In this document: positions 2,832-22,221 of the stretch, piece after piece
Layout: every line of letters begins with the position of its first letter
How positions within the stretch are numbered: the stretch's first letter is position 1
IMG/VR virus record: IMGVR_UViG_3300042868_003741
Location: 1-33,278 of that record
Direction: 5' to 3' (one strand)
Length of the DNA: 33,278 nt
Source: a virus
Notes under the pieces: model-generated
The model's database searches: none
What the model saw: the letters and a program-made list of their open reading frames with translations, nothing else
Told to the model about the DNA's origin: nothing
Program-made: the position numbers and the translations under genes

Positions 2832-3563
2832 ATGCGTGATCACTTATTAGACATCGTTAAAAACACTTATGGATTGGGCAATATCGATTTAGTTAAAATC
2901 GTAGGCACTGATTCAGAAACAGCAATTGAGGCACTAGCAGAAGACCGTAGTGTTATTGTACAGGCTAAACTAAACGGACCAGTGGCAGAATTCATTGGCA
3001 CATTTGGCATGCCAAACTTAGGTAAACTAAGTATTATCTTAGGTATTCAGGAATACAAAGAAAATGCTAAAATTAGTTTAACCAAACAAGATCGCAATGG
3101 TGAACAAGTTCCAGTGGGCTTACATTTTGAAAATGCTGCTGGCGACTTTAAGAATGATTATCGTTTTATGAGCCAAGAGATTGTCAACGACAAACTTAAA
3201 ACAGTTAAGATGCGTCCAGTAACATGGAATGTAGAGTTTGTGCCAAGCGTGGCAAATATCCAAAGATTGAAGTTTATGGCCAGTGCTAATGCAGAAGAAG
3301 CAAACTTTACTGCTAAGACTAACAACGGTAACTTAGAATTATCATTTGGTGATCATTCAAGTCACGCAGGTAATTTTGTATTCCAAGCAGGTGTTACAGG
3401 TACATTAACCAAAGCATGGTCGTGGCCAGTAGGGGCAGTTATTAGTATCTTAAACCTAGCTGGTGATAAGAAATTTAGCATCAGTGATGAAGGTGCGGCA
3501 CAGATCACTGTTAATAGTGGTCTAGCAACTTATAACTTTATCTTACCAGCACAGAGCAAGTAA
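2832..3563 (+). CDS. gp45: DNA polymerase sliding clamp (T4 gp45 type)
   Basis: This is the trimeric ring that tethers the polymerase to DNA. In T4-like phages it also activates late transcription. At 243 residues it is slightly longer than T4 gp45 (228). Recognition rests on the overall pattern: GPVAEFIGTFGMPNLGKL, repeated beta-rich segments, and a C-terminal half with SFGDHSSHAGNFVFQAG and TYNFILPA. There is no catalytic motif to check. Support also comes from its place next to gp43 and its own strong promoter. AGGAGA lies 7 bases before the ATG. The stop at 3561-3563 shares a base with the next start (TAATG). The identity is likely but less certain than the polymerase, because clamps diverge strongly. 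Confidence 0.82.
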   Translation: MRDHLLDIVKNTYGLGNIDLVKIVGTDSETAIEALAEDRSVIVQAKLNGPVAEFIGTFGMPNLGKLSIILGIQEYKENAKISLTKQDRNGEQVPVGLHFENAAGDFKNDYRFMSQEIVNDKLKTVKMRPVTWNVEFVPSVANIQRLKFMASANAEEANFTAKTNNGNLELSFGDHSSHAGNFVFQAGVTGTLTKAWSWPVGAVISILNLAGDKKFSISDEGAAQITVNSGLATYNFILPAQSK

Positions 3564-4138
3564 TGTCAAGTAAATGGGCACACCTAGGGCATACCTTAGG
3601 TGAATGCTGGAATGACTCAGACAAATCAATAACATTTGTCAATATTCCAAAAAATGCCAGTAGTTTTATCAAAGGGTGTTTGCTCAGCAGTGGTAATTTC
3701 ACGCACAGCGATAGTCTAGTCACTGCTGACCACTACCTTGTTGCTCTACGTGATCCAATTGATCGTTGGATCAGTGGTATTGCTCAATTTATGAATGATG
3801 AAAATAATCAAAGTGTTACACTGCATGATCTAGTTGACCGTGTGACTATTGATGATCACACAGAATTACAAACATACTTCTTAGAAGGAGTTGACTTGGA
3901 TCGTTGTACTTTTATTCAAGTTGATAAGAATTTAAGAACAAATTTATCCGCATGGTTCAAAGAAAACGATTATATTGTCAACATGGATAATATACCAAAC
4001 ATTAACCAAGGTAACCAATTACTCAAAGACAGATTTGCCGCAATGGTTGACGGCAACAGTCAAATCAAGTTAAAATTAGTTACACACTACGAACAAGACT
4101 ACGCACTAATTAATCGAGTAAAATTTTATGGAAATTGA
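3563..4138 (+). CDS. Sulfotransferase-like protein
   Basis: The 191-residue protein has the two signature segments of PAPS-dependent sulfotransferases in the right order. FVNIPKNASSFIKG (about residues 25-38) resembles the 5'-phosphosulfate loop (IPKxAS..). YLVALRDPIDRWISG (about 58-72) resembles the 3'-phosphate-binding segment (LRDPxxRxxS). It would move sulfate from PAPS to an alcohol or amine, but the acceptor is unknown. The protein is shorter than typical members (about 250 or more residues), so the C-terminal acceptor part is reduced. It starts on the last base of the clamp stop and overlaps the start of the DpdA-like gene by 11 bases, so it is probably co-translated with the modification enzyme. 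Confidence 0.65.
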   Translation: MSSKWAHLGHTLGECWNDSDKSITFVNIPKNASSFIKGCLLSSGNFTHSDSLVTADHYLVALRDPIDRWISGIAQFMNDENNQSVTLHDLVDRVTIDDHTELQTYFLEGVDLDRCTFIQVDKNLRTNLSAWFKENDYIVNMDNIPNINQGNQLLKDRFAAMVDGNSQIKLKLVTHYEQDYALINRVKFYGN

Positions 4139-5693
4139 TAATTTAACCAGCAAGCAACTAGACTATGCTGTATTCCTACCAGCATTGAGTGGCTTCTACG
4201 CTACTTATGTAGGTAAGCAACGTCATGATCCCACGTATGTAGATCCGGCACGCATACCGGCAGACTTTGAAAACGGCATTGAAGGACTTAACTGGCTCAA
4301 TCCAGATGCGGCATACTTTCCATATCAATGGGCGTTATACTCAGCAGGTCATGCAGAACTTGATGTCAATAAGCATAGCCCCAAAGAAGATATGATACGT
4401 AATCGTGATCGCAGTAGATCATTTGTCTTAGGCGACAGTGGTGGGTTCCAGATTGGTAAGGGCGTATGGGAAGGTGATTGGAAGAATCCTACGTGTCCTA
4501 AAGCACAAAAGAAACGTGAGCTAGTGCTCAAGTGGATGGATGCTTACATGGACTATGGTATGATTTTAGATATCCCAGCTTGGGTATGTCGTAGTCCAGC
4601 AGGCCGTGAAGCCACAGGCATTACTACTTACATGGAAGCCGTTGAAGGTACTTATATCAATAATGATTACTTTATGGCTAACCGCACAGGTGCTTGTAAG
4701 TTCTTAAACGTATTACAAGGTGAGAATCACACAGAAGCAGAAGATTGGTATCAACGCATGAAGAAGTACTGTGATCCTAAACAGTACGACAAACCATTCA
4801 ATGGGTGGGCTATGGGTGGGCAGAACATGTGTGATGTTCATTTGATACTTAAACGTTTAGTGTCCCTACGCTTTGACGGATTGTTACAAGAAGGCCTGCA
4901 TGACTGGATGCACTTCTTGGGTACAAGTAAACTTGAGTGGGCATGTTTATTAACCGACATTCAACGTGCTGTACGCAAATATCATAATCCTAACTTTACT
5001 GTGAGCTTTGACTGTGCTAGTCCTTTCTTAGCTAGTGCCAACGGACAGATTTATATCCAAACAGAAATTGAAAACAAAAGTAAATGGACTTATCGCATGG
5101 TACCAAGTGTAGACGATAAGAAATATGCTACGGACACACGTCGTTTCCGTGATGCTGTATTACAAGATAACTTATTCAAAGCATTTACAGAAAGTCCAGT
5201 GAGCCAACGTTGTACTATTAAAGATATTTGTATCTACAAGCCGGGTGACCTAAATAAGATTAACAAAGAAGGTCGGACAAGTTGGGATAGTTTCAGCTAT
5301 GCTATACAGATGGGCCATAATGTTTGGAGTCATTTGACAGCGGTACAAACAGCTAATCAAGAATACGATCGTGGAATCATGCCAGCTATGATGCACAGTG
5401 AAACCGCAGATAAGAAAACTCCTAGAAACTACGGAACAAATACTTTCCGTGAGATCGTTGACTTAATATTTGCTGTAGATAATAGAGAAGACGCACTAGC
5501 ATTGATCGAATATTACAGCGCATACTTCCAAGATATCAGAGGAACACGTGGAGCCACTGGTGACAAAGCTGTCAATGCTGGTACTATGTTTAATAGTTTA
5601 TTTGGTAGTGATGAACCAGAAGAACATCACGTAGATGACAGTGGATTAGATGAAGCTAGCTTAGACGATTTAGAAACCCAACTAGGAGAATAA
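4128..5693 (+). CDS. dpdA: DpdA/TGT-like transglycosylase (7-deazaguanine insertion into DNA)
   Basis: The 521-residue protein carries the active-site pattern of tRNA-guanine transglycosylases. LGDSGGFQIG (D103) matches the TGT substrate-binding aspartate. MILDIPAW (D148) and GWAMGGQ (226-232) match the guanine pocket. FDCASPF (D295) matches the FDCVxPT segment that holds the nucleophile. I see no CxCxxC zinc site of the tRNA enzymes. With FolE, QueD and QueE in the same phage, the best reading is a DpdA-family enzyme that swaps guanine for a 7-deazaguanine in phage DNA and so protects it from restriction. The C-terminus is acidic (DDSGLDEASLDDLETQLGE). AGGAGA near its end serves the next gene. 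The exact DpdA subfamily and the base used cannot be read from sequence. Confidence 0.85.
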   Translation: MEIDNLTSKQLDYAVFLPALSGFYATYVGKQRHDPTYVDPARIPADFENGIEGLNWLNPDAAYFPYQWALYSAGHAELDVNKHSPKEDMIRNRDRSRSFVLGDSGGFQIGKGVWEGDWKNPTCPKAQKKRELVLKWMDAYMDYGMILDIPAWVCRSPAGREATGITTYMEAVEGTYINNDYFMANRTGACKFLNVLQGENHTEAEDWYQRMKKYCDPKQYDKPFNGWAMGGQNMCDVHLILKRLVSLRFDGLLQEGLHDWMHFLGTSKLEWACLLTDIQRAVRKYHNPNFTVSFDCASPFLASANGQIYIQTEIENKSKWTYRMVPSVDDKKYATDTRRFRDAVLQDNLFKAFTESPVSQRCTIKDICIYKPGDLNKINKEGRTSWDSFSYAIQMGHNVWSHLTAVQTANQEYDRGIMPAMMHSETADKKTPRNYGTNTFREIVDLIFAVDNREDALALIEYYSAYFQDIRGTRGATGDKAVNAGTMFNSLFGSDEPEEHHVDDSGLDEASLDDLETQLGE

Positions 5694-5694
5694 C

Positions 5695-5883
5695 GTGAAT
5701 AAGGACAAATTGCAACATCACCTTAAACATTTAGAAGAACGTCACGCAGAGTTAGAAAAGAAAATTAAAGAAGGGTACAGTCATTACCTAGATGATGCAC
5801 ACCTTGGTAAAATCAAACATGAAAAATTAGGTATTAAACGCGATATTGGAAAAACTCTTAAACAACTGGAAGAATATAAATGA
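5695..5883 (+). CDS. Small helical protein, YdcH/DUF465-like
   Basis: This is a 62-residue, highly charged helical hairpin. The pattern HLKHLEERHAELEKKIKEG...LGKIKHEKLGIKRDIGKTLKQLEEY matches small YdcH/SlyX-like (DUF465) proteins: HxxLexxkxxLdxxI, a turn, then LKkeKLxlKDeI. The start is GTG, chosen because AGGAGA lies 5 bases upstream. It sits one base after the DpdA-like gene and overlaps the next gene by 4 bases (ATGA). Its function is unknown. Confidence 0.7.
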   Translation: MNKDKLQHHLKHLEERHAELEKKIKEGYSHYLDDAHLGKIKHEKLGIKRDIGKTLKQLEEYK

Positions 5884-6398
5884 AACGTGAATATGTATCT
5901 GGTGAAAGAGACGCAGTAACTTACTTTGTAGGTGATGAAATTGAACACACACCTGCTTTTGGTATGCGTACACTATTTGTAGTGGGTATACAGAAAGTAG
6001 AAGAAATTATCAGCCTAGCCGAGTTACACAAGTGCAAGCATATCTACTTTGGTGCTAATCAAAGCTATAGTCCAGAATCTACAGATGAAATGTTTGTTTG
6101 GGATCATATGATCATGGAATGCCTAACTGAGAATTATTGGTGTACTTTAGATTTTGATGCACAGTGGGTAGAAGATGTTATTGAAGGTGGTATAGTTGAG
6201 CAACGTCGTTTTATTCCACAAATTTCGGTAAAATTGCCCTACTTGACACAGCTAGGATATAATGCTACAATTAAGATAGACGATAAAGATTTTGATGCAA
6301 CAAACCCAGGTGTTTGGTGTCATCGCCTACGTGATTTAACAACAACTAACTCATTCACTGACTGGGATGAATATGGCAAGGATATTGTTATAAAATGA
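5880..6398 (+). CDS. Conserved-looking phage protein, function unknown
   Basis: The 172-residue protein is acidic to neutral and has no membrane segment or signal peptide. It contains FGMRTLFVVGIQKVEEI and CKHIYFGANQSYSP, which look like a Rossmann-like strand-helix-strand, followed by WDHMIMECLTENYWCTLDFD. I recall similar proteins in marine T4-like phages but know no function. It overlaps both neighbours by 4 bases (ATGA), so it belongs to the dpdA operon. The downstream neighbour is the T-fold-like protein. Confidence 0.7.
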   Translation: MKREYVSGERDAVTYFVGDEIEHTPAFGMRTLFVVGIQKVEEIISLAELHKCKHIYFGANQSYSPESTDEMFVWDHMIMECLTENYWCTLDFDAQWVEDVIEGGIVEQRRFIPQISVKLPYLTQLGYNATIKIDDKDFDATNPGVWCHRLRDLTTTNSFTDWDEYGKDIVIK

Positions 6399-6838
6399 TA
6401 TTAGAAGAACGTGAACGTATAGATAGAATTATCAAGGCTGCACAGAAAAAGGTATGGGTCACCTTTCAAAAGGAGGGCATTCATTGCTTTCCGGCGGCTG
6501 CAACTGATCCTAAACTAAATACTGGAGATGAGTATGATGTTTCGTTTCTTGCTAATCCTCATCGTCACATCTTTCATTTCAGGGTGTGTATTGATGTCTT
6601 CCACGACGACAGGGAACTTGAGTTCATCCAATTCAAACGATGGCTTGAATCCTTATACCGTGGTAACATTTTGAAATTAGATTTCAAAAGTTGTGAAATG
6701 ATCTCAGATGATCTTTACTTAAAGATTGCTGAAAAGTATCCCAATCGTGATGTTCACATAGAAGTAAGTGAAGATGGCGAAAATGGGAGTTATGTTGAGT
6801 ACAACTGTACTCGTCCTTACCAAACTGTCACTGTATAG
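6395..6838 (+). CDS. Putative T-fold protein resembling QueD/PTPS or QueF
   Basis: The 147-residue protein can be laid over the tunnelling-fold family (QueD, FolE, QueF). H30 in KEGIHCF and H56/H58 in NPHRHIFHFRV would match the three zinc-binding histidines of 6-pyruvoyl-tetrahydropterin synthase/QueD, where the pair reads HGH. EFIQFKRWLESLYRG resembles both the GMVxDFxxLK helix of QueD and the ELKSLKLYLxSFR helix of QueF. VHIEVSEDGENGS resembles the last strand with its acidic ligand. The QueD catalytic cysteine four residues before the HxH is absent. It may be a non-catalytic or differently acting relative of the separate QueD at 22470. This is pattern reasoning, not a database match. It overlaps the previous gene by 4 bases. 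Confidence 0.5.
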   Translation: MILEERERIDRIIKAAQKKVWVTFQKEGIHCFPAAATDPKLNTGDEYDVSFLANPHRHIFHFRVCIDVFHDDRELEFIQFKRWLESLYRGNILKLDFKSCEMISDDLYLKIAEKYPNRDVHIEVSEDGENGSYVEYNCTRPYQTVTV

Positions 6839-6849
6839 GAGATTTAATC

Positions 6850-7083
6850 GTGGCAACTCAAAACAAGCCTAATAGGACTTATCCAATGAAGGCCGAAGTA
6901 AGACAAATTTTCAATGACTTAGACGCATGGCTTAACTACTGTCGTTTCCGTATGATCAAGTATGATGAGGCTGATCTTTATCGTTCAGTAGAATACAAAG
7001 AATGGCAAGAGCGTCGAAAGAAACGCCAACAATGGCAGGCTCGTAATGGCATTGTCTACAATAAACAAAATCGAGGTCGATAA
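6850..7083 (+). CDS. Small basic protein, function unknown
   Basis: This 77-residue, strongly basic protein is rich in aromatic residues (WLNYCRFRMIKYDEADLYRS, KEWQERRKKRQQW). It might bind nucleic acid, but no known domain is recognised. The GTG start is supported by AGGAGA 6 bases upstream. The stop shares a base with the next start (TAATG). Confidence 0.7.
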   Translation: MATQNKPNRTYPMKAEVRQIFNDLDAWLNYCRFRMIKYDEADLYRSVEYKEWQERRKKRQQWQARNGIVYNKQNRGR

Positions 7084-8177
7084 TGACTGTATTTCTAGTT
7101 GATCTAGAAGCAGTTGAAACTAGGTACACGGGTCAATGGAAGACTCATGTACCTGCTCTCTTACGAAAGGAAGGACATGATGTTCATATCATTGAAGGAC
7201 CCACTGATATACCAAGTGCTACTACCCCTGGTGCTTTTCTTAATTTCGGCGGTACTAACATATACAAAGCCCGCCAAGTCGAACAGATGGGGAGATTGTT
7301 TTGCGATGGTAGAGTTAACTCTGGTGATCACTTTCTTTTTACTGATGCATGGCATCCTGGAATTATTAATCTAAAGTACATGAGCGAGTTGTTAGGTATC
7401 AAAGTAACTATCCATGCCCTATGGCATGCTGGTAGTTATGATCCTCAAGACTTCTTAGGTAGATTAATTGGTGATACACCGTGGGTTAGAAATGCCGAAA
7501 AGAGTTTCTTTCATGCTGTAGATCACAACTATTTTGCCACAGACTTTCACATTAAAATGTTTTATGAAACTCTACTACAAAACGGACTGATGTTAGAACA
7601 CGCATGGGCAGAAGAATGGTTTGAAGAATTACATCAAGATAGTAAAATCGTACGTACAGGTTGGCCTATGGAATATATGGACAGTGCGTTAACGTTATAT
7701 AAGAATATGGACAAGCGCGATTTAATCTTATTTCCACATCGTATTGCTCCAGAGAAACAAGTAGAAATATTCCGTGACTTAAAAGAACACTTACCACAAT
7801 ACGAATTTGTTGTTTGTCAAGATCAACATCTTACAAAGAATGAATATCATAATTTGTTAGGTGAAGCTAAACTTGTGTTTAGTGCTAACCTACAGGAAAC
7901 ACTTGGTATTAGTTGGTACGAAGGTGCTGTTGTGGATGCTATTCCAATGGTGCCGGATCGTTTAAGTTATAGCGAAATGGCCATGGATGAGTTCAAATAC
8001 CCAAGTGAGTGGACAGAATCATTTGATGCATACAAACAACATAGAACAGAAATCATCGCAAAGATTGACAACTACATGAAAAACTATAATTCATTCTTGC
8101 CCGCATTAAAAACACAAACTCACAAGCTAACAGCTAACTTCTTTAGCGCAACCAATCTATTAGAAAATATTAAATAA
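7083..8177 (+). CDS. GT-B fold glycosyltransferase (GT4-like)
   Basis: The 364-residue protein has the layout of a retaining GT-B glycosyltransferase. The N-terminal half is Rossmann-like (HVPALLRKEGHDVHIIEGP) but lacks a glycine-rich nucleotide loop. The C-terminal half begins at RDLILFPHRIAPEKQVEIF, the usual phosphate-contact segment of GT4 enzymes. It continues through YEFVVCQDQ to KLVFSANLQETLGISWYEGA, which carries an E-x7-E pattern for binding the sugar nucleotide. The sugar and acceptor are unknown. Lying between dpdA and folE, it could decorate the modified DNA base, as phage base glucosyltransferases do. A glycan on a virion protein is an equal alternative. Its stop overlaps the next ATG (TAATG), linking it to the aminotransferase. 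Confidence 0.75.
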   Translation: MTVFLVDLEAVETRYTGQWKTHVPALLRKEGHDVHIIEGPTDIPSATTPGAFLNFGGTNIYKARQVEQMGRLFCDGRVNSGDHFLFTDAWHPGIINLKYMSELLGIKVTIHALWHAGSYDPQDFLGRLIGDTPWVRNAEKSFFHAVDHNYFATDFHIKMFYETLLQNGLMLEHAWAEEWFEELHQDSKIVRTGWPMEYMDSALTLYKNMDKRDLILFPHRIAPEKQVEIFRDLKEHLPQYEFVVCQDQHLTKNEYHNLLGEAKLVFSANLQETLGISWYEGAVVDAIPMVPDRLSYSEMAMDEFKYPSEWTESFDAYKQHRTEIIAKIDNYMKNYNSFLPALKTQTHKLTANFFSATNLLENIK

Positions 8178-8761
8178 TGGGATTTGAAAAGATCTCAGAG
8201 TTTGAATCTGCACTAGCCAAGTTTACTGGTGCGCCATATGCAGTTATGACTGACTGTTGCACACATGCCATTGAATTATGCCTACGATTTGATCAAGTTA
8301 AATCAACACAATTTACTCCATATACATATCTTAGTGTTCCAATGACCATGCACAAGCTAGGTATAGAATATTCTTATTTGGACATATCCAAACAATGGGT
8401 AGGTGAATACCAATTTCAAGGTACTCGAATCTGGGACAGTGCCCGTCTGTTAAAACAAAACATGTACCGCTCAGGTATGCTACAATGTTTAAGTTTTGGC
8501 CATGACAAACCACTATCAATCGGTCGAGGTGGTGCAGTATTAACTGATGATGTAGAAGTATATGATGTACTCAAACATCAATGCTATGATGGCCGTGATC
8601 TAACTGTTAGTCCCTGGGAACAACAACTAACATTCCGTGTTGGTTATCATTATCGCCCAACCATAGAAGAAGCAGTACGAGCATTAGAATTATTATCAAC
8701 TGTTGACCAAAAACCTAAATACAAACAGTATCCAGACCTACGTGATATTATTATCAAATAA
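8177..8761 (+). CDS. Very short DegT/DnrJ/EryC1-type PLP aminotransferase
   Basis: The protein resembles sugar aminotransferases of the DegT/DnrJ/EryC1/StrS family but has 194 residues instead of about 370-400. Visible pieces are CCTHAIELCLRF (the GT/SxA-type cofactor phosphate loop), TPYTYLSVPMTMHKLGIEYSYLDI, RIWDSARLL (D87, matching the ring-nitrogen aspartate) and LSFGHDKPLSIGRGGAVLTDD. In the last, K111 matches the Schiff-base lysine and GRGGAVLTDD the family signature. The C-terminal domain is missing, with no frameshift or downstream remnant. A functional mini-enzyme or a reduced binding protein are both possible. It is coupled to the glycosyltransferase, which suggests an amino sugar. 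It ends just before the folE promoter. Confidence 0.72.
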   Translation: MGFEKISEFESALAKFTGAPYAVMTDCCTHAIELCLRFDQVKSTQFTPYTYLSVPMTMHKLGIEYSYLDISKQWVGEYQFQGTRIWDSARLLKQNMYRSGMLQCLSFGHDKPLSIGRGGAVLTDDVEVYDVLKHQCYDGRDLTVSPWEQQLTFRVGYHYRPTIEEAVRALELLSTVDQKPKYKQYPDLRDIIIK

Positions 8762-8763
8762 GT

Positions 8764-8792
8764 TTGACATAGACCTAAATAACCTATATAAT
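8764..8792 (+). promoter_or_regulatory. Consensus sigma70-type promoter for the folE operon
   Basis: A perfect TTGACA (8764-8769), 17 bp and a perfect TATAAT (8787-8792). CTAAATA (8775-8781) lies in the spacer, as in the clamp promoter. The 44-base leader carries CGGAGTAAAG before the TTG start of folE at 8837. Confidence 0.85.
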
Positions 8793-8836
8793 ATTAACAT
8801 ATCCCAATCCACTGGGTAAACATCGGAGTAAAGAAA

Positions 8837-9532
8837 TTGTCAAAATATAAAGTAAGTGAAACAATTCGTAATAACTTGAAAGCAAGTAACAAACGCTTTT
8901 GGGCTGGCGATAATATTTCAGAATATATTACAGCAGAAAATAAAGAACTGTTAATTGACGAAGCCACTGAAGCATTTGAAAGTGTTTTAGATACGTTATT
9001 AATTGATCGTGAAAATGACCCAAACAGTCACGGTACAGCTAGACGACTAGCTAAAATGTACTTTAACGAGATCATGGCAGGTAGATATGAGCCTAATCCA
9101 GATGCTACAGCATTTCCAAATGACAGCGTAGATCGTTATGAAGGTATGTTGGTAGTACGTAGTGAACTACGCAGTATGTGTAGTCATCATCACCAACCAG
9201 TTAAAGGTGTAGCCTATATTGGTATTATTGCCGCTAGTAAACTAATTGGACTTAGTAAGTATACACGTATTGCACAATGGTGTTCTACCCGTGGTACATT
9301 ACAAGAAGAATTATGCAATGATATCACACGCGAGATTATGAAAGCCACAGGCAGTGAAAACGTTGCCGTATACATCCAAGCAACACATGGTTGCTGTGAA
9401 AATCGTGGTATTATGGCACATAGTAGTCTAACACAAACAACAGTGTTAAAGGGCGCATTCAAAGATGATCCAGACACCAAGAAAGAGTTCTTTGACAATA
9501 TTAAATTACAACAGGAGTTTGCACCAAGATGA
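8837..9532 (+). CDS. folE: GTP cyclohydrolase I
   Basis: This enzyme converts GTP to dihydroneopterin triphosphate, the entry step for both folate and 7-deazaguanine synthesis. The 231-residue length is normal. Key motifs are DPNSHGTARRLAKMYFNEI, SMCSHHHQPVKG with the zinc cysteine and adjacent histidine, LIGLSKYTRI, and ATHGCCENRG with the second zinc cysteine and catalytic region. The start is a TTG supported by an upstream GGAG and its own consensus promoter. It heads a second operon running through the phosphoribosyltransferase. In this phage it most likely feeds QueD and QueE. A role in folate supply with the phage DHFR and ThyA is possible too. Confidence 0.95.
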   Translation: MSKYKVSETIRNNLKASNKRFWAGDNISEYITAENKELLIDEATEAFESVLDTLLIDRENDPNSHGTARRLAKMYFNEIMAGRYEPNPDATAFPNDSVDRYEGMLVVRSELRSMCSHHHQPVKGVAYIGIIAASKLIGLSKYTRIAQWCSTRGTLQEELCNDITREIMKATGSENVAVYIQATHGCCENRGIMAHSSLTQTTVLKGAFKDDPDTKKEFFDNIKLQQEFAPR

Positions 9533-9858
9533 GTGACTTAAAACAACTAGCAAGAAATTATTTTGAAACATTTAGTCGCATGGACATCAATGGCCTTGAA
9601 GCGTTATTCAGTGATGACATAGTATTACGTGATTGGGAACAGGCAGCTATTGGCAAGGTTGATGTGATCACATCTAATCAAAACTTGTTTCAAAGAGTAA
9701 CAAGTATTCAAGTTGACCCAGTTCAAATTTATCAAGATGAGAACACTGTGGCGGCTGAATTAATTGTTACTATTAATAATGAAATTAGATTATTAGTAAC
9801 AGATGTGATAACATTTACAGGCGACAAGATCAGCAGTATCAGAGCCTACAAAGGATAA
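9529..9858 (+). CDS. SnoaL/NTF2-like fold protein
   Basis: The 109-residue protein has the layout of NTF2/SnoaL-like proteins: an N-terminal helix pair (LKQLARNYFETFSRMDINGLEALFSDDIVLRDW), then strands such as TVAAELIVTINNEIRLLVTDVITF, ending in SIRAYKG. These small cone-shaped proteins act as enzymes (isomerases, cyclases, hydrolases) or binding modules. No specific catalytic residues can be assigned. It overlaps the folE stop by 4 bases (ATGA), so a link to pterin or deazaguanine metabolism is possible but unproven. Confidence 0.7.
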   Translation: MSDLKQLARNYFETFSRMDINGLEALFSDDIVLRDWEQAAIGKVDVITSNQNLFQRVTSIQVDPVQIYQDENTVAAELIVTINNEIRLLVTDVITFTGDKISSIRAYKG

Positions 9859-9860
9859 TC

Positions 9861-10157
9861 ATGCGTTGGATTAAAAAGAAGATATGTAATTGGTTGGGTG
9901 TCGAACGATTTGACGATTGGGGGTCTGTTGAAGAATCTACTCCGTTGAGATGTCGTAATGATTCCCCCACCTTCTTTGATCGCAATCCAGAAACTAATTT
10001 TCGTATCTACACTGCATCGGGTGGTATTATACTTGAAGTAGGTCGATGGGATAAACTTAAACAAGAATGGAATACCAACATGCATATCATCAATGATGAC
10101 GACGAGCATAAAACTGATAGTATTGCTAAAATTATGACCTTGGAGTTGATGCGATGA
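9861..10157 (+). CDS. Small protein, function unknown
   Basis: The 98-residue protein has a basic amphipathic start (RWIKKKICNWLG), then RIYTASGGIILEVGRWDKLKQEW, and an acidic end. No domain is recognised. AAAGGA lies upstream of the ATG, and the gene overlaps the phosphoribosyltransferase start by 4 bases, which supports it being real. Confidence 0.65.
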   Translation: MRWIKKKICNWLGVERFDDWGSVEESTPLRCRNDSPTFFDRNPETNFRIYTASGGIILEVGRWDKLKQEWNTNMHIINDDDEHKTDSIAKIMTLELMR

Positions 10158-17935: not shown

Positions 17936-18009
17936 TTTTAAGTAATAAAATCAATGACTTAGCAACTACTATACAGCAATATTTGGATAATTTGAGCCAG
18001 TAATTTTGG

Positions 18010-18038
18010 TTGACTTTTGGTAAAAATGGTGCTATAAT
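18010..18038 (+). promoter_or_regulatory. Sigma70-type promoter with extended -10, for the helicase-nuclease
   Basis: TTGACT (18010-18015), 17 bp, and TATAAT (18033-18038) preceded by TGC, an extended -10. A 33-base leader with no strong Shine-Dalgarno precedes the TTG start at 18072. The first 12 bases (TTGACTTTTGGT) recur exactly in the promoter at 25686. Confidence 0.85.
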
Positions 18039-18071
18039 AGCTTTATATTAATAATTAGAAAGTATCAAACT

Positions 18072-20993
18072 TTGTTAAAACAACTACTTAATAAACATCA
18101 AAATCATTTAGATTTTTGGGAAGATCTTGAAGTCCAGGGAGGTCGTTTATTATTTGAAGAATATGTTGCTCTGTATCTTAAAGCTACCCTGCCAGGTGAT
18201 ACATACTGGCTTGGTGAAGATGTTGTGCCAGCACACATCGCACAAAAATATCGTTTTACAAACCTACTCAAAGGCAAGCGTAGTTTAGGCGGTGATGTTA
18301 TTAATGTCTACCAAAATCGTGCCGTTGCTTACGAATCTAAATGGTTTGATGAAAAAGAATCTATCAACTTAAAACTTGTTGCTAATAAGCAACAAGTTAT
18401 CAACAAAACTGGTATTGACCAACTTATCTTTGCTACAAATGCTCGTCGTACTTCAGATGCTGTTACAGAATGGGTCGACGAAGCAGGTTTCATGTTCCAA
18501 GAAGAATGGATCACTAAAGAAGTCTATGACACAGTTAAAGCATATATCAAGGGTCAAGTAAAGAAAACTTACGAGCCAATGACTCTGCGACCAGAATGTT
18601 TGCCTGGAGAAGCTGTGCCGTTCTTTGAGCAAGCAATGTTGGAACTACAGGCAGACTTTGACAAAAAGTTTACCAAAACTCCTGTTAACAAAATACTTAC
18701 TCGTATCTTTCAACACTGGCCAGCGGCTTCTGGCAAAGGTAGTTTTCCTCGCTTGGCTTACGATATGATTTTTGAGTCTCGTTGGAACTACAAGAAGGCA
18801 CATCCTATTAACACGGTTATCAATCCTACGCTGACTGTTTTGAAGGGCAACCTTGTTAAACATATTCATCATGATATCGGTTTGGGTAATATTGACAATG
18901 TGATCCATGTTATCTACGCAGGCGATGTTACTAAAGCCGCAAAGGATACAGAAGAACTACAAGCCATCCGTTCTATGGCAAAGGTGTTTGTTAATAAGAT
19001 TGAATTTGTAAAGTTTCTACGCGAAATTCAAAACCAAACAGTGTGGGTTCATACTACTGTTCATAGTTACGATAGACTTGCCAAAGTAATGAAAGGTCAG
19101 AAGAAAAGTTTCTACTTTGGGCACATTGACGAAGTCCATCACATGATTCAACCGGATTATTCCACTTGGACCGCTTCACTTAACGACGCCGCTTGCCTTA
19201 TTCAAATTCGTTTGATGACTAGTGCCAACAAGCGTAAGGCTCGTGGATCTGGTGCTACTTATAGTATGGACGATCCTGCATTCTGTGATATTCAAGTTAA
19301 AGACTTAGACGAACAGACCGCAGTAAAACTTGGTTACAAGCGTAAGACAGTTTTATTAAACTATGTTTACGATGACAATAGTTTTCCAACAGATTGGATC
19401 GAACGACTTGAAAATGGCGGACAGCCCTTAATCAAACTTAAAGACACTGATATTGTTGTACCTATGAGTTGGTTTATGGCAGTTGATAGTTTGTTACGAT
19501 TCCGTGTTGAATATAGTGAACGCAATCATACCAAACTCACTTTGAACTCTATTAAAGAGTGTCAGGAGTTTGCTAAGTTTATTATGGCAATTCGTCCTAA
19601 ACTTCTTAAGGAACTTGCTCATTCTAACAATCCTGTGTATCGTCGTTTGCTCAAGGCAAAAGTGATGGTAGCGGATACACAAGAAAATTCTACTGTAAAA
19701 TTGTTGAAAGAAGTAAGTGCTATTCCCGATACTTTTGAAGACAGTTTTATTATTCATTGCCGTTTGCTTGGCGAAGGTTGGGATCCAGAAAACGGTTGGA
19801 TTGACAGCAATATGTTTATCAGTCCCACGCACAGTGAAATTCGTATCTATCAAGACGTGAATCGCGGTAGCCGGATTGGTGATGGTAGTAAATCTATTAA
19901 CCATGTTGTTCAGTTTTTCCTCAAAGACGAAGAAAACCACTTCAATGACATGTTTGCTCGTGTCAAGCATGTAGGAGAAGCGTTAGAAGTAGGTGTTGAT
20001 GAGATCACTGAACAAGTTATTTTTAAGCAAATCCGCAACATTCCTAAAGGTAAGAAAATGTCTCGCCAAGCCGGCACAGATGTTTTATCTTACTATGACG
20101 AAGTCAGTGCTGACTTTTTTGCTAATAGTTTTAACACCTATATCAAAGAAGGACGATATCATAGGTTTGGTGGTGTGGTGAATGATATTATTATTAGTTG
20201 GATTAAAATGGACCAGGAACGGAGAGGGTATCTACCTACCTGGAAAATCATTAATCAAATGAAGAAGGATATTAAAGGACAGTATAAAGATTTTTTTAGT
20301 CAATTCAAAAGTGATGTTAGTTTAAGACGGATTATTAACGGAGAACACCCCTTACTGTCAGACGAAAATATGATGTTGGCAATTAATTGGCAAATTGAAA
20401 GAGTAGAACTTGCTGAAGTAGTTCGACAGGATATCAGAAATATTGTAGATACTTGTATGGCTCGACAACCAAGTTTTGGTGCCATTTTTCAAGAATTTGG
20501 AAATATTATTAAAGAAAAATATGGAACAGACCAAGCAACCATCAGACGAATTGCTAAGGACATCTACAAAAAATATCCAAAAGAATATTATGATAGAACG
20601 TATAAAATCATTGCCGATCTTATGATCAAGAACAAAACAAAGGCAACTACGTTAGCAGAACTATCTAATGTCATCTTAAATCAGTTAGAAGATACCGGAA
20701 TAAGCACATCAAAATTATCCAAGAACTTAACTAATATATGGTTCAAAGGGCACAAATCTTTAAGCAAAACAACGTTAGAGAAGATGAGGCAGATTCGAGC
20801 AGAACTTACAGGTAAGGCTATTAGCAGAGCAAGTAGTGGAAGAACAGCATCTATCGAAACTCGGAAAAAAATGTCTGCGTCAGGGAAAGGTCGAAAGCAA
20901 ACACCCAAACAAATCGCCAAGCGTGCCGAAACTCGTCGGGCTACTATTATTGAAAAATATGGAAGCATGGAGGCATTTTATCAACAAATTTAG
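18072..20993 (+). CDS. Restriction-endonuclease/SF2-helicase fusion with NUMOD3-like C-terminal tail
   Basis: The 973-residue protein starts with a PD-(D/E)xK nuclease-like domain: FEEYVALYLK, then GGDVI (D75) and AVAYESKWF (E88, K90). This is the D...ExK layout of Mrr-like domains. An SF2 helicase of the restriction-enzyme type follows. It has a modified Walker A (PAASGKGSF, 217-225), HIDEVHHM (motif II, 353-356), MTSAN (motif III, 382-386), GEGWD (motif V, 567-571) and QDVNRGSR (motif VI, 594-601). The end (about 915-960) reads SGRTASIETRKKMSASGKG and then GRKQTPKQ, the NUMOD3 pattern of homing endonucleases. The closest class known to me is COG4889/type ISP restriction helicases, but no methyltransferase domain is fused. 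It has its own promoter and could be a homing-type element, an anti-competitor nuclease or a restriction system. The TTG start is uncertain. Confidence 0.78.
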   Translation: MLKQLLNKHQNHLDFWEDLEVQGGRLLFEEYVALYLKATLPGDTYWLGEDVVPAHIAQKYRFTNLLKGKRSLGGDVINVYQNRAVAYESKWFDEKESINLKLVANKQQVINKTGIDQLIFATNARRTSDAVTEWVDEAGFMFQEEWITKEVYDTVKAYIKGQVKKTYEPMTLRPECLPGEAVPFFEQAMLELQADFDKKFTKTPVNKILTRIFQHWPAASGKGSFPRLAYDMIFESRWNYKKAHPINTVINPTLTVLKGNLVKHIHHDIGLGNIDNVIHVIYAGDVTKAAKDTEELQAIRSMAKVFVNKIEFVKFLREIQNQTVWVHTTVHSYDRLAKVMKGQKKSFYFGHIDEVHHMIQPDYSTWTASLNDAACLIQIRLMTSANKRKARGSGATYSMDDPAFCDIQVKDLDEQTAVKLGYKRKTVLLNYVYDDNSFPTDWIERLENGGQPLIKLKDTDIVVPMSWFMAVDSLLRFRVEYSERNHTKLTLNSIKECQEFAKFIMAIRPKLLKELAHSNNPVYRRLLKAKVMVADTQENSTVKLLKEVSAIPDTFEDSFIIHCRLLGEGWDPENGWIDSNMFISPTHSEIRIYQDVNRGSRIGDGSKSINHVVQFFLKDEENHFNDMFARVKHVGEALEVGVDEITEQVIFKQIRNIPKGKKMSRQAGTDVLSYYDEVSADFFANSFNTYIKEGRYHRFGGVVNDIIISWIKMDQERRGYLPTWKIINQMKKDIKGQYKDFFSQFKSDVSLRRIINGEHPLLSDENMMLAINWQIERVELAEVVRQDIRNIVDTCMARQPSFGAIFQEFGNIIKEKYGTDQATIRRIAKDIYKKYPKEYYDRTYKIIADLMIKNKTKATTLAELSNVILNQLEDTGISTSKLSKNLTNIWFKGHKSLSKTTLEKMRQIRAELTGKAISRASSGRTASIETRKKMSASGKGRKQTPKQIAKRAETRRATIIEKYGSMEAFYQQI

Positions 20994-21044
20994 TAATCTC
21001 ATAATTACCTCGTAGCAGTTTGGCAAAACTAAATAGAAATTATA

Positions 21045-21075
21045 GTTGAACTGTTCAACAGTTTAGTTGTATAAT
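21045..21075 (+). promoter_or_regulatory. Promoter overlapped by two interleaved palindromes (possible operator)
   Basis: TTGAAC (21046-21051), 18 bp, and a perfect TATAAT (21070-21075). Two perfect 15-base palindromes overlap it: GTTGAACTGTTCAAC (21045-21059, centre 21052) and AACTGTTCAACAGTT (21049-21063, centre 21056). A repressor binding either one would cover the -35 box. As RNA, the same bases could form alternative hairpins. Confidence 0.6.
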
Positions 21076-21093
21076 TAAGTAATACAACTCCTA

Positions 21094-21226
21094 GCCAACC
21101 GGAGTATCTACCCGGCCCCTGACACAAGTCAGAAGCGAACACAATAGACAGGTAGCCCAGCGTCACAGCATGTGGCAATGGTAGGTTATGATATCACTCG
21201 ATAGACATGATCAACGTCAGGTTGGC
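21094..21226 (+). ncRNA. Candidate structured RNA in the leader of the 21256 operon
   Basis: The 262-base gap 20994-21255 has no plausible gene. Within it, GCCAACC (21094-21100) pairs perfectly with GGTTGGC (21220-21226). Inside this closing stem, CTACC (21108-21112) pairs with GGTAG (21151-21155) around a hairpin CTGAC-ACAA-GTCAG (21119-21132). A further hairpin GTCACA-GCA-TGTGGC lies at 21162-21176, and a short TATC-ACTC-GATA stem follows. This gives a closed multibranch fold of about 133 bases just downstream of a promoter. It resembles a riboswitch or regulatory RNA, but I cannot match it to a known class. It lacks the features of a tRNA or a complete group I intron. Confidence 0.4.
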
Positions 21227-21255
21227 ATATTATTAACTATAAGGACAAAAATAAT

Positions 21256-21489
21256 ATGACAAGAATAAAAGTTTATTCAACACAAAAACCCGCATTTCCG
21301 CAGACTGTAGAAATATATACTGTTGAGGATGGCACTAAAAGTAAAAGTTCTTGGTGCTCAGAAATCAACACCAATGACTATCTTAAAACTCGAGTCGAGT
21401 TAGAACAACTCGAATACCTAGCGCATCCGATCAATAGCCAAGAAATCACCACCCAGGAATACAGCACATTCCATATGGGAGGTAACTAA
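21256..21489 (+). CDS. Small protein, function unknown
   Basis: This 77-residue protein (TRIKVYSTQKPAFPQTVEIY and on) is beta-rich at the start and helical later. No domain is recognised. It is the first gene after the structured leader, with AAGGAC 9 bases before the ATG. It is followed one base later by the next gene, so any riboswitch or operator upstream would control both. Confidence 0.65.
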   Translation: MTRIKVYSTQKPAFPQTVEIYTVEDGTKSKSSWCSEINTNDYLKTRVELEQLEYLAHPINSQEITTQEYSTFHMGGN

Positions 21490-21490
21490 C

Positions 21491-22192
21491 ATGGCAAACA
21501 AATTTTTCAATTACCAAGGCGCACCCTGGCAAATCATTGAAACAACGGACCCATGGGGTAACCCATTGACCTATGCTGTGGAGATGGACTCTACCGACGG
21601 AGCGATGTTAAACACAGAAGAATATAGTGAGGGCAGCGATTGGGAATACGTACAGGCTACGGATGTTAGGATCGATGCCTGGTTCTTAAAAAGTGACCCA
21701 AATGATTTGTTTGGTGATGAGGACGAACCCGATGAAGAAGAACCATTTGATCCTGCACAAACTATCAACACTAGTAAATTAAAAGCCATGTTGGACCAAC
21801 TTAACAACAGACCAACCGACGGCCCAACCAGGCATTGGAGTATAACCCAAGACGATGATCCAACTAAACCTAATGGAACCATAGACCGTGCCGTGGACAT
21901 ACTCAGCATGATACGTGCTCGTCAAGAGAATGAAATGCGCCCAACCGTGATATTAAATGCAAGTAAATACACAGATTCAAAGTCCTTAGAGTCAGCATTA
22001 GAGACGATTCGTAAAAAAGATCAAGAGGCTGATATATGGGTAGGTACTACCCGTGCAGATGATTTCTTAGCAACATTGAAGAATCAAGAAACGATTGGTC
22101 TTAGTAGTGTTCCGGATGACTCTAAACCATTGGGATTAATGTTAGATCAAGAAATTCTTGAGTTAATTAAACGATTACGTCCAAAAAAGTAG
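21491..22192 (+). CDS. Acidic protein, function unknown
   Basis: The 233-residue protein has an N-terminal part rich in aromatic residues (FFNYQGAPWQIIETTDPWGN) and a very acidic linker (DEDEPDEEEPFD, about residues 77-88). The C-terminal half is helical, with DRAVDILSMIRARQEN and ESALETIRKKDQEADIWVGT. No known domain is recognised. AGGTAACTAAC precedes the ATG. The TAG stop lies one base before the -35 box of the next promoter. Confidence 0.7.
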   Translation: MANKFFNYQGAPWQIIETTDPWGNPLTYAVEMDSTDGAMLNTEEYSEGSDWEYVQATDVRIDAWFLKSDPNDLFGDEDEPDEEEPFDPAQTINTSKLKAMLDQLNNRPTDGPTRHWSITQDDDPTKPNGTIDRAVDILSMIRARQENEMRPTVILNASKYTDSKSLESALETIRKKDQEADIWVGTTRADDFLATLKNQETIGLSSVPDDSKPLGLMLDQEILELIKRLRPKK

Positions 22193-22221
22193 TTGACATT
22201 TATCAAAAATCTAAATATAAT
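22193..22221 (+). promoter_or_regulatory. Consensus sigma70-type promoter, leaderless start for the 22227-queD operon
   Basis: TTGACA (22193-22198), 17 bp, TATAAT (22216-22221). ATG at 22227 lies 5 bases past the -10 box, predicting a leaderless message. CTAAATA (22211-22217) overlaps the -10 box. Confidence 0.85.

Follow-up and report, generated by a model that had tools for sequence, protein, structure and literature searches.

Several described nucleases combine features relevant to the phage gene reported here. In the Type ISP enzymes LlaGI and LlaBIII, a single chain begins with a nuclease, continues with an SF2 helicase-like motor and ends with a DNA-recognition part (PMC4666363), and CglI is a helicase-like ATPase restriction enzyme that performs NTP-dependent cleavage at its recognition site (PMC5737866). 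In Vibrio phage ICP1, Odn is a chimeric nuclease that pairs a nuclease domain of the homing family with a DNA-binding domain borrowed from elsewhere, and the counter-defence locus of this phage holds either CRISPR-Cas or Odn (PMC8263062, PMC9040626). The PhiPA3 intron endonuclease homes and also interferes with a phage infecting the same cell (PMC11620839), which indicates that homing and interference roles can coincide.

The gene analysed here lies at positions 18072-20993, on the plus strand, of a linear IMG/VR viral record of 33278 bases (hereafter 'the window'). Its product is predicted from sequence to have the nuclease, motor and recognition order of the Type ISP enzymes; it differs from them in lacking a methyltransferase, both in the protein and on the contigs examined, in its homing-type tail and in matching neither Mrr nor ResIII. 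CglI differs by being bacterial, made of two separate subunits and devoid of a homing-type tail. Like Odn, the window protein appears to be a chimeric nuclease carried by a phage and equipped with a DNA-binding domain taken from another source, encoded at a locus filled elsewhere by another defence system, but Odn has a GIY-YIG-type T5orf172 nuclease domain, no motor has been described for it and its DNA-binding domain is similar to a satellite replication protein. The likeness to the T4-type homing endonucleases MobE and I-TevI concerns the DNA-binding modules of the two tails described below; MobE and I-TevI have catalytic domains of other kinds and no known ATPase motor. The PhiPA3 endonuclease, which is intron-encoded, similarly has no known motor.

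The ORF is real, as evidenced by its 973-codon open frame, which starts with TTG and spans exactly 18072-20993, by a promoter-like site just upstream (TTGACT-17-TATAAT, 18010-18038, plus strand), and by its occurrence on other contigs in near-identical or homologous form. We scanned viral contigs with the single protein, with alignments and with a motif-designed alignment; the motif-designed queries (A4 and A5) included invented rows and served only to guide search patterns. This yielded a near-identical copy (contig L001, and L006 as a fragment), a 1040-residue allele called P0002 (L002 and L003), and an allele represented by a 361-residue fragment at a contig end (L004). The gene is rare, since only two alleles were found in addition to that of the window, P0001. 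No copies of the body were detected in the genome contigs, which were scanned twice, or in the plasmids and phage records searched. Three distinct phage locations harbour the gene, and two of them are cleanly empty in close relatives. Between P0001 and P0002, dN is 0.080 and dS 1.28 over 722 codons (residues 1-730), and the resulting omega of 0.062, which is approximate because dS exceeds 1, points to strong purifying selection on the body (omega 0.06).

An initial annotation, made from the window sequence, described the protein as a PD-(D/E)xK nuclease-like domain joined to a restriction-type SF2 helicase of the COG4889 type. The N-terminal domain (18072-18590) is a candidate PD-(D/E)xK nuclease: D75 (18294-18296), E88 (18333-18335) and K90 (18339-18341) are unchanged in 3 of 3 alleles, a weak test as the alleles are 77-92% identical in this region, and the protein has no match to Mrr_cat_2. 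AlphaFold models, each computed from three sequences, gave pLDDT values of 31 for the full-length protein and 42 for residues 1-173, and neither model speaks for or against the fold proposed for residues 1-160. The motor (18660-20170) is SF2-like according to its motifs, which we read by eye and which are in the correct order. The Walker-A-like PAASGKGS (residues 217-224, 18720-18743) and DEVH (residues 353-356, 19128-19139) are invariant in the three alleles, and GEGWD (residues 567-571, 19770-19784) and QDVNRGSR (residues 594-601, 19851-19874) in both alleles that reach that far. The helicase assignment is thus backed by these ordered, invariant motifs, but the motor has no match to ResIII or other Pfam profiles and no sequence match to solved helicases. 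A sequence search of the PDB with the nuclease and motor parts returned chance matches only (thermosome, CD86). With neither Mrr_cat_2 nor ResIII matched, the assignment to COG4889 is not confirmed. No family in Pfam, NCBIfam or PADLOC matches the protein, and no nuclease, helicase or defence-protein profile was hit; for the PADLOC anti-phage defence profiles this holds at E=0.1. The fused methyltransferase typical of COG4889 enzymes had been noted as missing, and neither the protein nor contigs G000, L001, L003 and L004, which are fragments, gave a methyltransferase match.

The comparison of P0001 and P0002 indicates that the C-terminal part of the protein is exchangeable. Their bodies are ~90% identical over residues 1-695, identity drops to <25% near residues 695-720, and beyond a short island at residues 751-780 the tails share nothing; the exchangeable segment of the window gene covers 20170-20990. 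As only two alleles are full length, tail exchange rests on this one comparison. The window tail ends in NUMOD3-like repeats of the MobE type (residues 894-973, 20751-20990), with the best Pfam stretch at 20838-20894. In a PHROGs search, the whole protein gave a homing-endonuclease match in its tail alone (phrog_314, residues 883-961, E=7.5e-4; E=7.8e-5 for the tail by itself). A tblastn search with the last 80 residues (best E=0.009) returned mainly annotated homing endonucleases, one of them MobE, and the best relatives of this tail are NUMOD3-bearing phage homing endonucleases. The NUMOD3-like tail of the initial annotation is supported by weak phrog_314 and MobE-type matches but not by PF07460, which stayed below its curated cut-off (14.2 versus 20.4 bits; 19 of 37 positions, E=0.002 for one genome). 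The P0002 tail resembles the DNA-binding domain of I-TevI (PDB 1i3j) over 61 residues (E=0.0064), and I-TevI was again among the tblastn hits. Each of these matches is weak singly, and more weight lies in the fact that both tails, although unrelated, lead to DNA-binding modules of homing enzymes. That one body bears different homing-type tails, as would be expected for an exchangeable specificity domain, strengthens the proposed union of nuclease, helicase and homing-type tail. The last third of the gene had also been described as AT-richer, and GC content is indeed lower for residues 731-973 (35.4%) than for residues 1-730 (38.8%), but the minimum lies at residues 701-900 (31-35%) and the NUMOD3-like end (residues 901-973) is at 43%.

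We collected eighty relatives using the neighbouring flap-exonuclease protein. In five of them (L007, L009, L017, L020 and L021), the exonuclease stop codon abuts the promoter of the next gene, and the whole 17936-22193 segment, which runs in the window from the exonuclease stop to the TTGACA promoter of the next gene, is missing. The comparison with empty sites called for by the initial annotation thus reveals a clean, insert-free junction. The segment also contains two accompanying genes on the plus strand, coding for proteins of 77 and 233 residues (21256-22192), which in L011 and L090 follow a gene for a 131-residue protein. At its left side, on the same strand, a boundary sequence after the exonuclease stop (17936-17961) is common to L015 and L013, and is followed by a remnant of the 3' end of the L011 131-residue gene (NLQQYLDNLSQ and stop; 17972-18007; 92% identity over 36 bases, E=5.6e-8). 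Because of this 36-base remnant on the left and the 77- and 233-residue genes on the right, the cassette probably once sat after the 131-residue gene and moved with its flanks. The last serine codon of the exonuclease is recoded in nearly all occupied relatives (TCA or TCG, versus AGT in empty ones), with the exception of L008. The latter contig has a separate insert between a DUF3307 gene and the next gene (3317-6586), in which we recognized by eye a FkbM-like methyltransferase gene, a gene for a 507-residue ParB-like protein and an HNH-like gene.

Other relatives carry methyltransferase genes at these positions. At the exonuclease/QueD-side junction, the slot used in the window, there are PF01555 methyltransferase cassettes in L013 (E=1e-35; 5853-10003) and L176/L180 (E=1.4e-43; 8209-10135 in L176) and an N6_Mtase cassette in L015 (8477-10298). 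A methyltransferase-bearing cassette occupies a second slot in L011 (6219-10484; DNA methyltransferase PHROG, E=8.5e-9), the slot in which the window cassette seems to have originated, and in L068 an Eco57I gene follows the 131-residue gene. Most partner proteins in these cassettes are without known family; a 266-residue protein of L013 is weakly similar to a Type II enzyme (E=0.017). Beside the methyltransferase gene of L013, a 656-residue protein (7643-9613) looks by eye like a GHKL ATPase and matches no family. The methyltransferase-bearing cassettes are probably restriction-modification (R-M)-like and use two recurrent slots of one phage group. As genes that are not R-M-like also use the slots (L008, L010 and L056), slot sharing is suggestive only. 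In five cassettes, including both helicase cassettes, TTGAC(T/C)-17-TATAAT is found at near-equal spacing before the first gene; this promoter-like arrangement is 59-66 bases from that gene in the L003, L011, L013 and L015 cassettes.

Directly after the nuclease-helicase gene, we identified a previously unreported structured RNA element (21087-21245, plus strand) with covarying helices and a long-range pseudoknot. It is present in 10 viral contigs, including at L003 4181-4282, L011 10539-10649, L176 10204-10312 and L177 12807-12916 (minus strand), and has no Rfam match at E=1. In nine base pairs both partners vary while pairing is preserved, a count reached by 0 of 500 shuffles in our covariation test, and the seven pairs of the pseudoknot covary. 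Among the distinct contexts with upstream sequence, two correspond to the nuclease-helicase gene, in two phage backgrounds, three to methyltransferase cassettes (L011, L176/L180 and L177, in which the RNA follows the methyltransferase genes), and one (L090) has no cassette. The RNA precedes small genes, and its position before a start codon suggests that it is a leader.

The initial annotation also took the DNA of the phage to be probably base-modified. The window encodes FolE (E=2.6e-38), a QueD-type PTPS (E=9.2e-27) and QueE (E=7.8e-52); QueC was not seen. The product of 4128-5693 harbours a DSGGFQ motif, read by eye, and has unannotated relatives (30-35% identity) in PA5oct-type jumbo phages. 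Its assignment to the TGT family was not kept, as there is no Pfam match. Divergent DpdA2 enzymes are known (PMC6884629), and we tentatively consider this transglycosylase-like product, on the basis of its motif, as a divergent DpdA. The FolE, QueD and QueE genes are thus real, the transglycosylase is proposed from a motif, and 7-deazaguanine DNA is plausible from the pathway genes.

Altogether, the exchanged tail, the purifying selection and the slot shared with R-M-like cassettes lead us to propose, with a probability of about 0.5, that the product is a restriction-type nuclease, ATP-dependent and directed to specific sites, whose gene is carried as an exchangeable weapon cassette. In this view the tail would bind a specific DNA site, the SF2-like motor would use ATP to move along or remodel DNA, and cutting would be done by the N-terminal nuclease. 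The target would likely be the DNA of rival phages or mobile elements, possibly that of the host. As no methyltransferase accompanies the gene, the DNA of the phage itself would be spared by lacking the site or by carrying a modified guanine. A restriction function, one of the two options initially put forward, gains support from the R-M-like cassettes that relatives keep in the same slot, together with the shared promoter placement, the same RNA and the FolE, QueD and QueE genes of the window, and the alternation of CRISPR-Cas and Odn in ICP1 provides a precedent for a weapon cassette. It is weakened by the low pLDDT of the models (31 and 42) and the lack of matches to nuclease, helicase or defence profiles, by the fact that DNA-binding modules like those of the tails are otherwise known from homing enzymes, and by the occurrence of the RNA without a cassette in L090.

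The main rival, which is compatible with a weapon function, is that this is a gene for a homing endonuclease to which a motor has been added: its tail would find the insert-free site in a relative infecting the same cell, the nuclease would break it, and repair would copy the cassette into it. The tails resembling homing-endonuclease modules, their pairing with two insertion sites and the clean empty sites at two loci all fit this possibility, and the L003 locus favours it. The L003 insert, made of an HNH gene on the minus strand, the helicase gene and two small genes, breaks the 3' end of a gene that we take, by eye, to code for a UV-damage endonuclease, 10 codons before its stop. It supplies a recoded replacement end, the old 33-base end being left at the right junction, and relatives L092-L104 are insert-free at this site. 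Furthermore, when L003 1-5079 is compared with L002, a contig from another metagenome, and with L092, L002 and L003 show 100% identity over 5078 bases encompassing the insert and ~300 bases beyond. After the switch they are ~10% divergent, and L003 becomes 99.7% identical to the insert-free L092, a pattern indicative of recent transfer with flanking sequence. The switch sits within a 22-base stretch common to the three sequences; with so short a shared stretch, an assembly chimaera is unlikely. One contig (G018, L164) carries an L003-type locus plus flap-exonuclease and QueE genes, indicating that the two phage groups are related. Homing, the other option initially considered, thus also gains ground, through the empty sites and the gene split by the L003 insert. 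However, the ordinary HNH homing endonuclease gene in the L003 insert could by itself explain the move, and the window insert has no such gene. The latter is larger, carrying a pair of passenger genes plus a leftover from a different locus, and looks like the result of recombination between slots and not of homing; moreover, translocating nucleases are not known to home. We regard homing as a possible but less probable main function.

Helicase and nuclease are often fused in the enzymes of phage DNA metabolism, and the window gene adjoins those of the flap exonuclease and an RNase_T-type exonuclease, so that its product might instead help to degrade the host genome, to replicate or to recombine DNA, and have a tail that binds DNA non-specifically. 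Such a DNA-processing role is unlikely, because the gene is missing from nearly all relatives with those exonucleases, occupies three locations and has exchanged its tail between alleles. That it is a broken, functionless remnant of a bacterial restriction enzyme, as its rare and patchy occurrence without a methyltransferase or close relatives in the genomes or plasmids searched might suggest, is very improbable considering its dN/dS of 0.062 over 722 codons, its intact frame and the motifs conserved in its alleles.

A broader, more speculative proposal is that of a class of motor-driven phage nucleases in which one ATP-dependent body would accept plug-in homing-endonuclease tails for different sites, in a cassette that would move from phage to phage with its promoter and the new RNA, and would serve to interfere with rivals as well as to spread itself. 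If this is true, restriction-type motors and homing-type targeting, which are usually treated apart, would be united in one phage enzyme with exchangeable specificity. The phage would represent a testable case of attack on rival DNA that spares its own without a companion methyltransferase, and, as in ICP1, a single slot would hold R-M-like cassettes in some phages and one chimeric nuclease in others.
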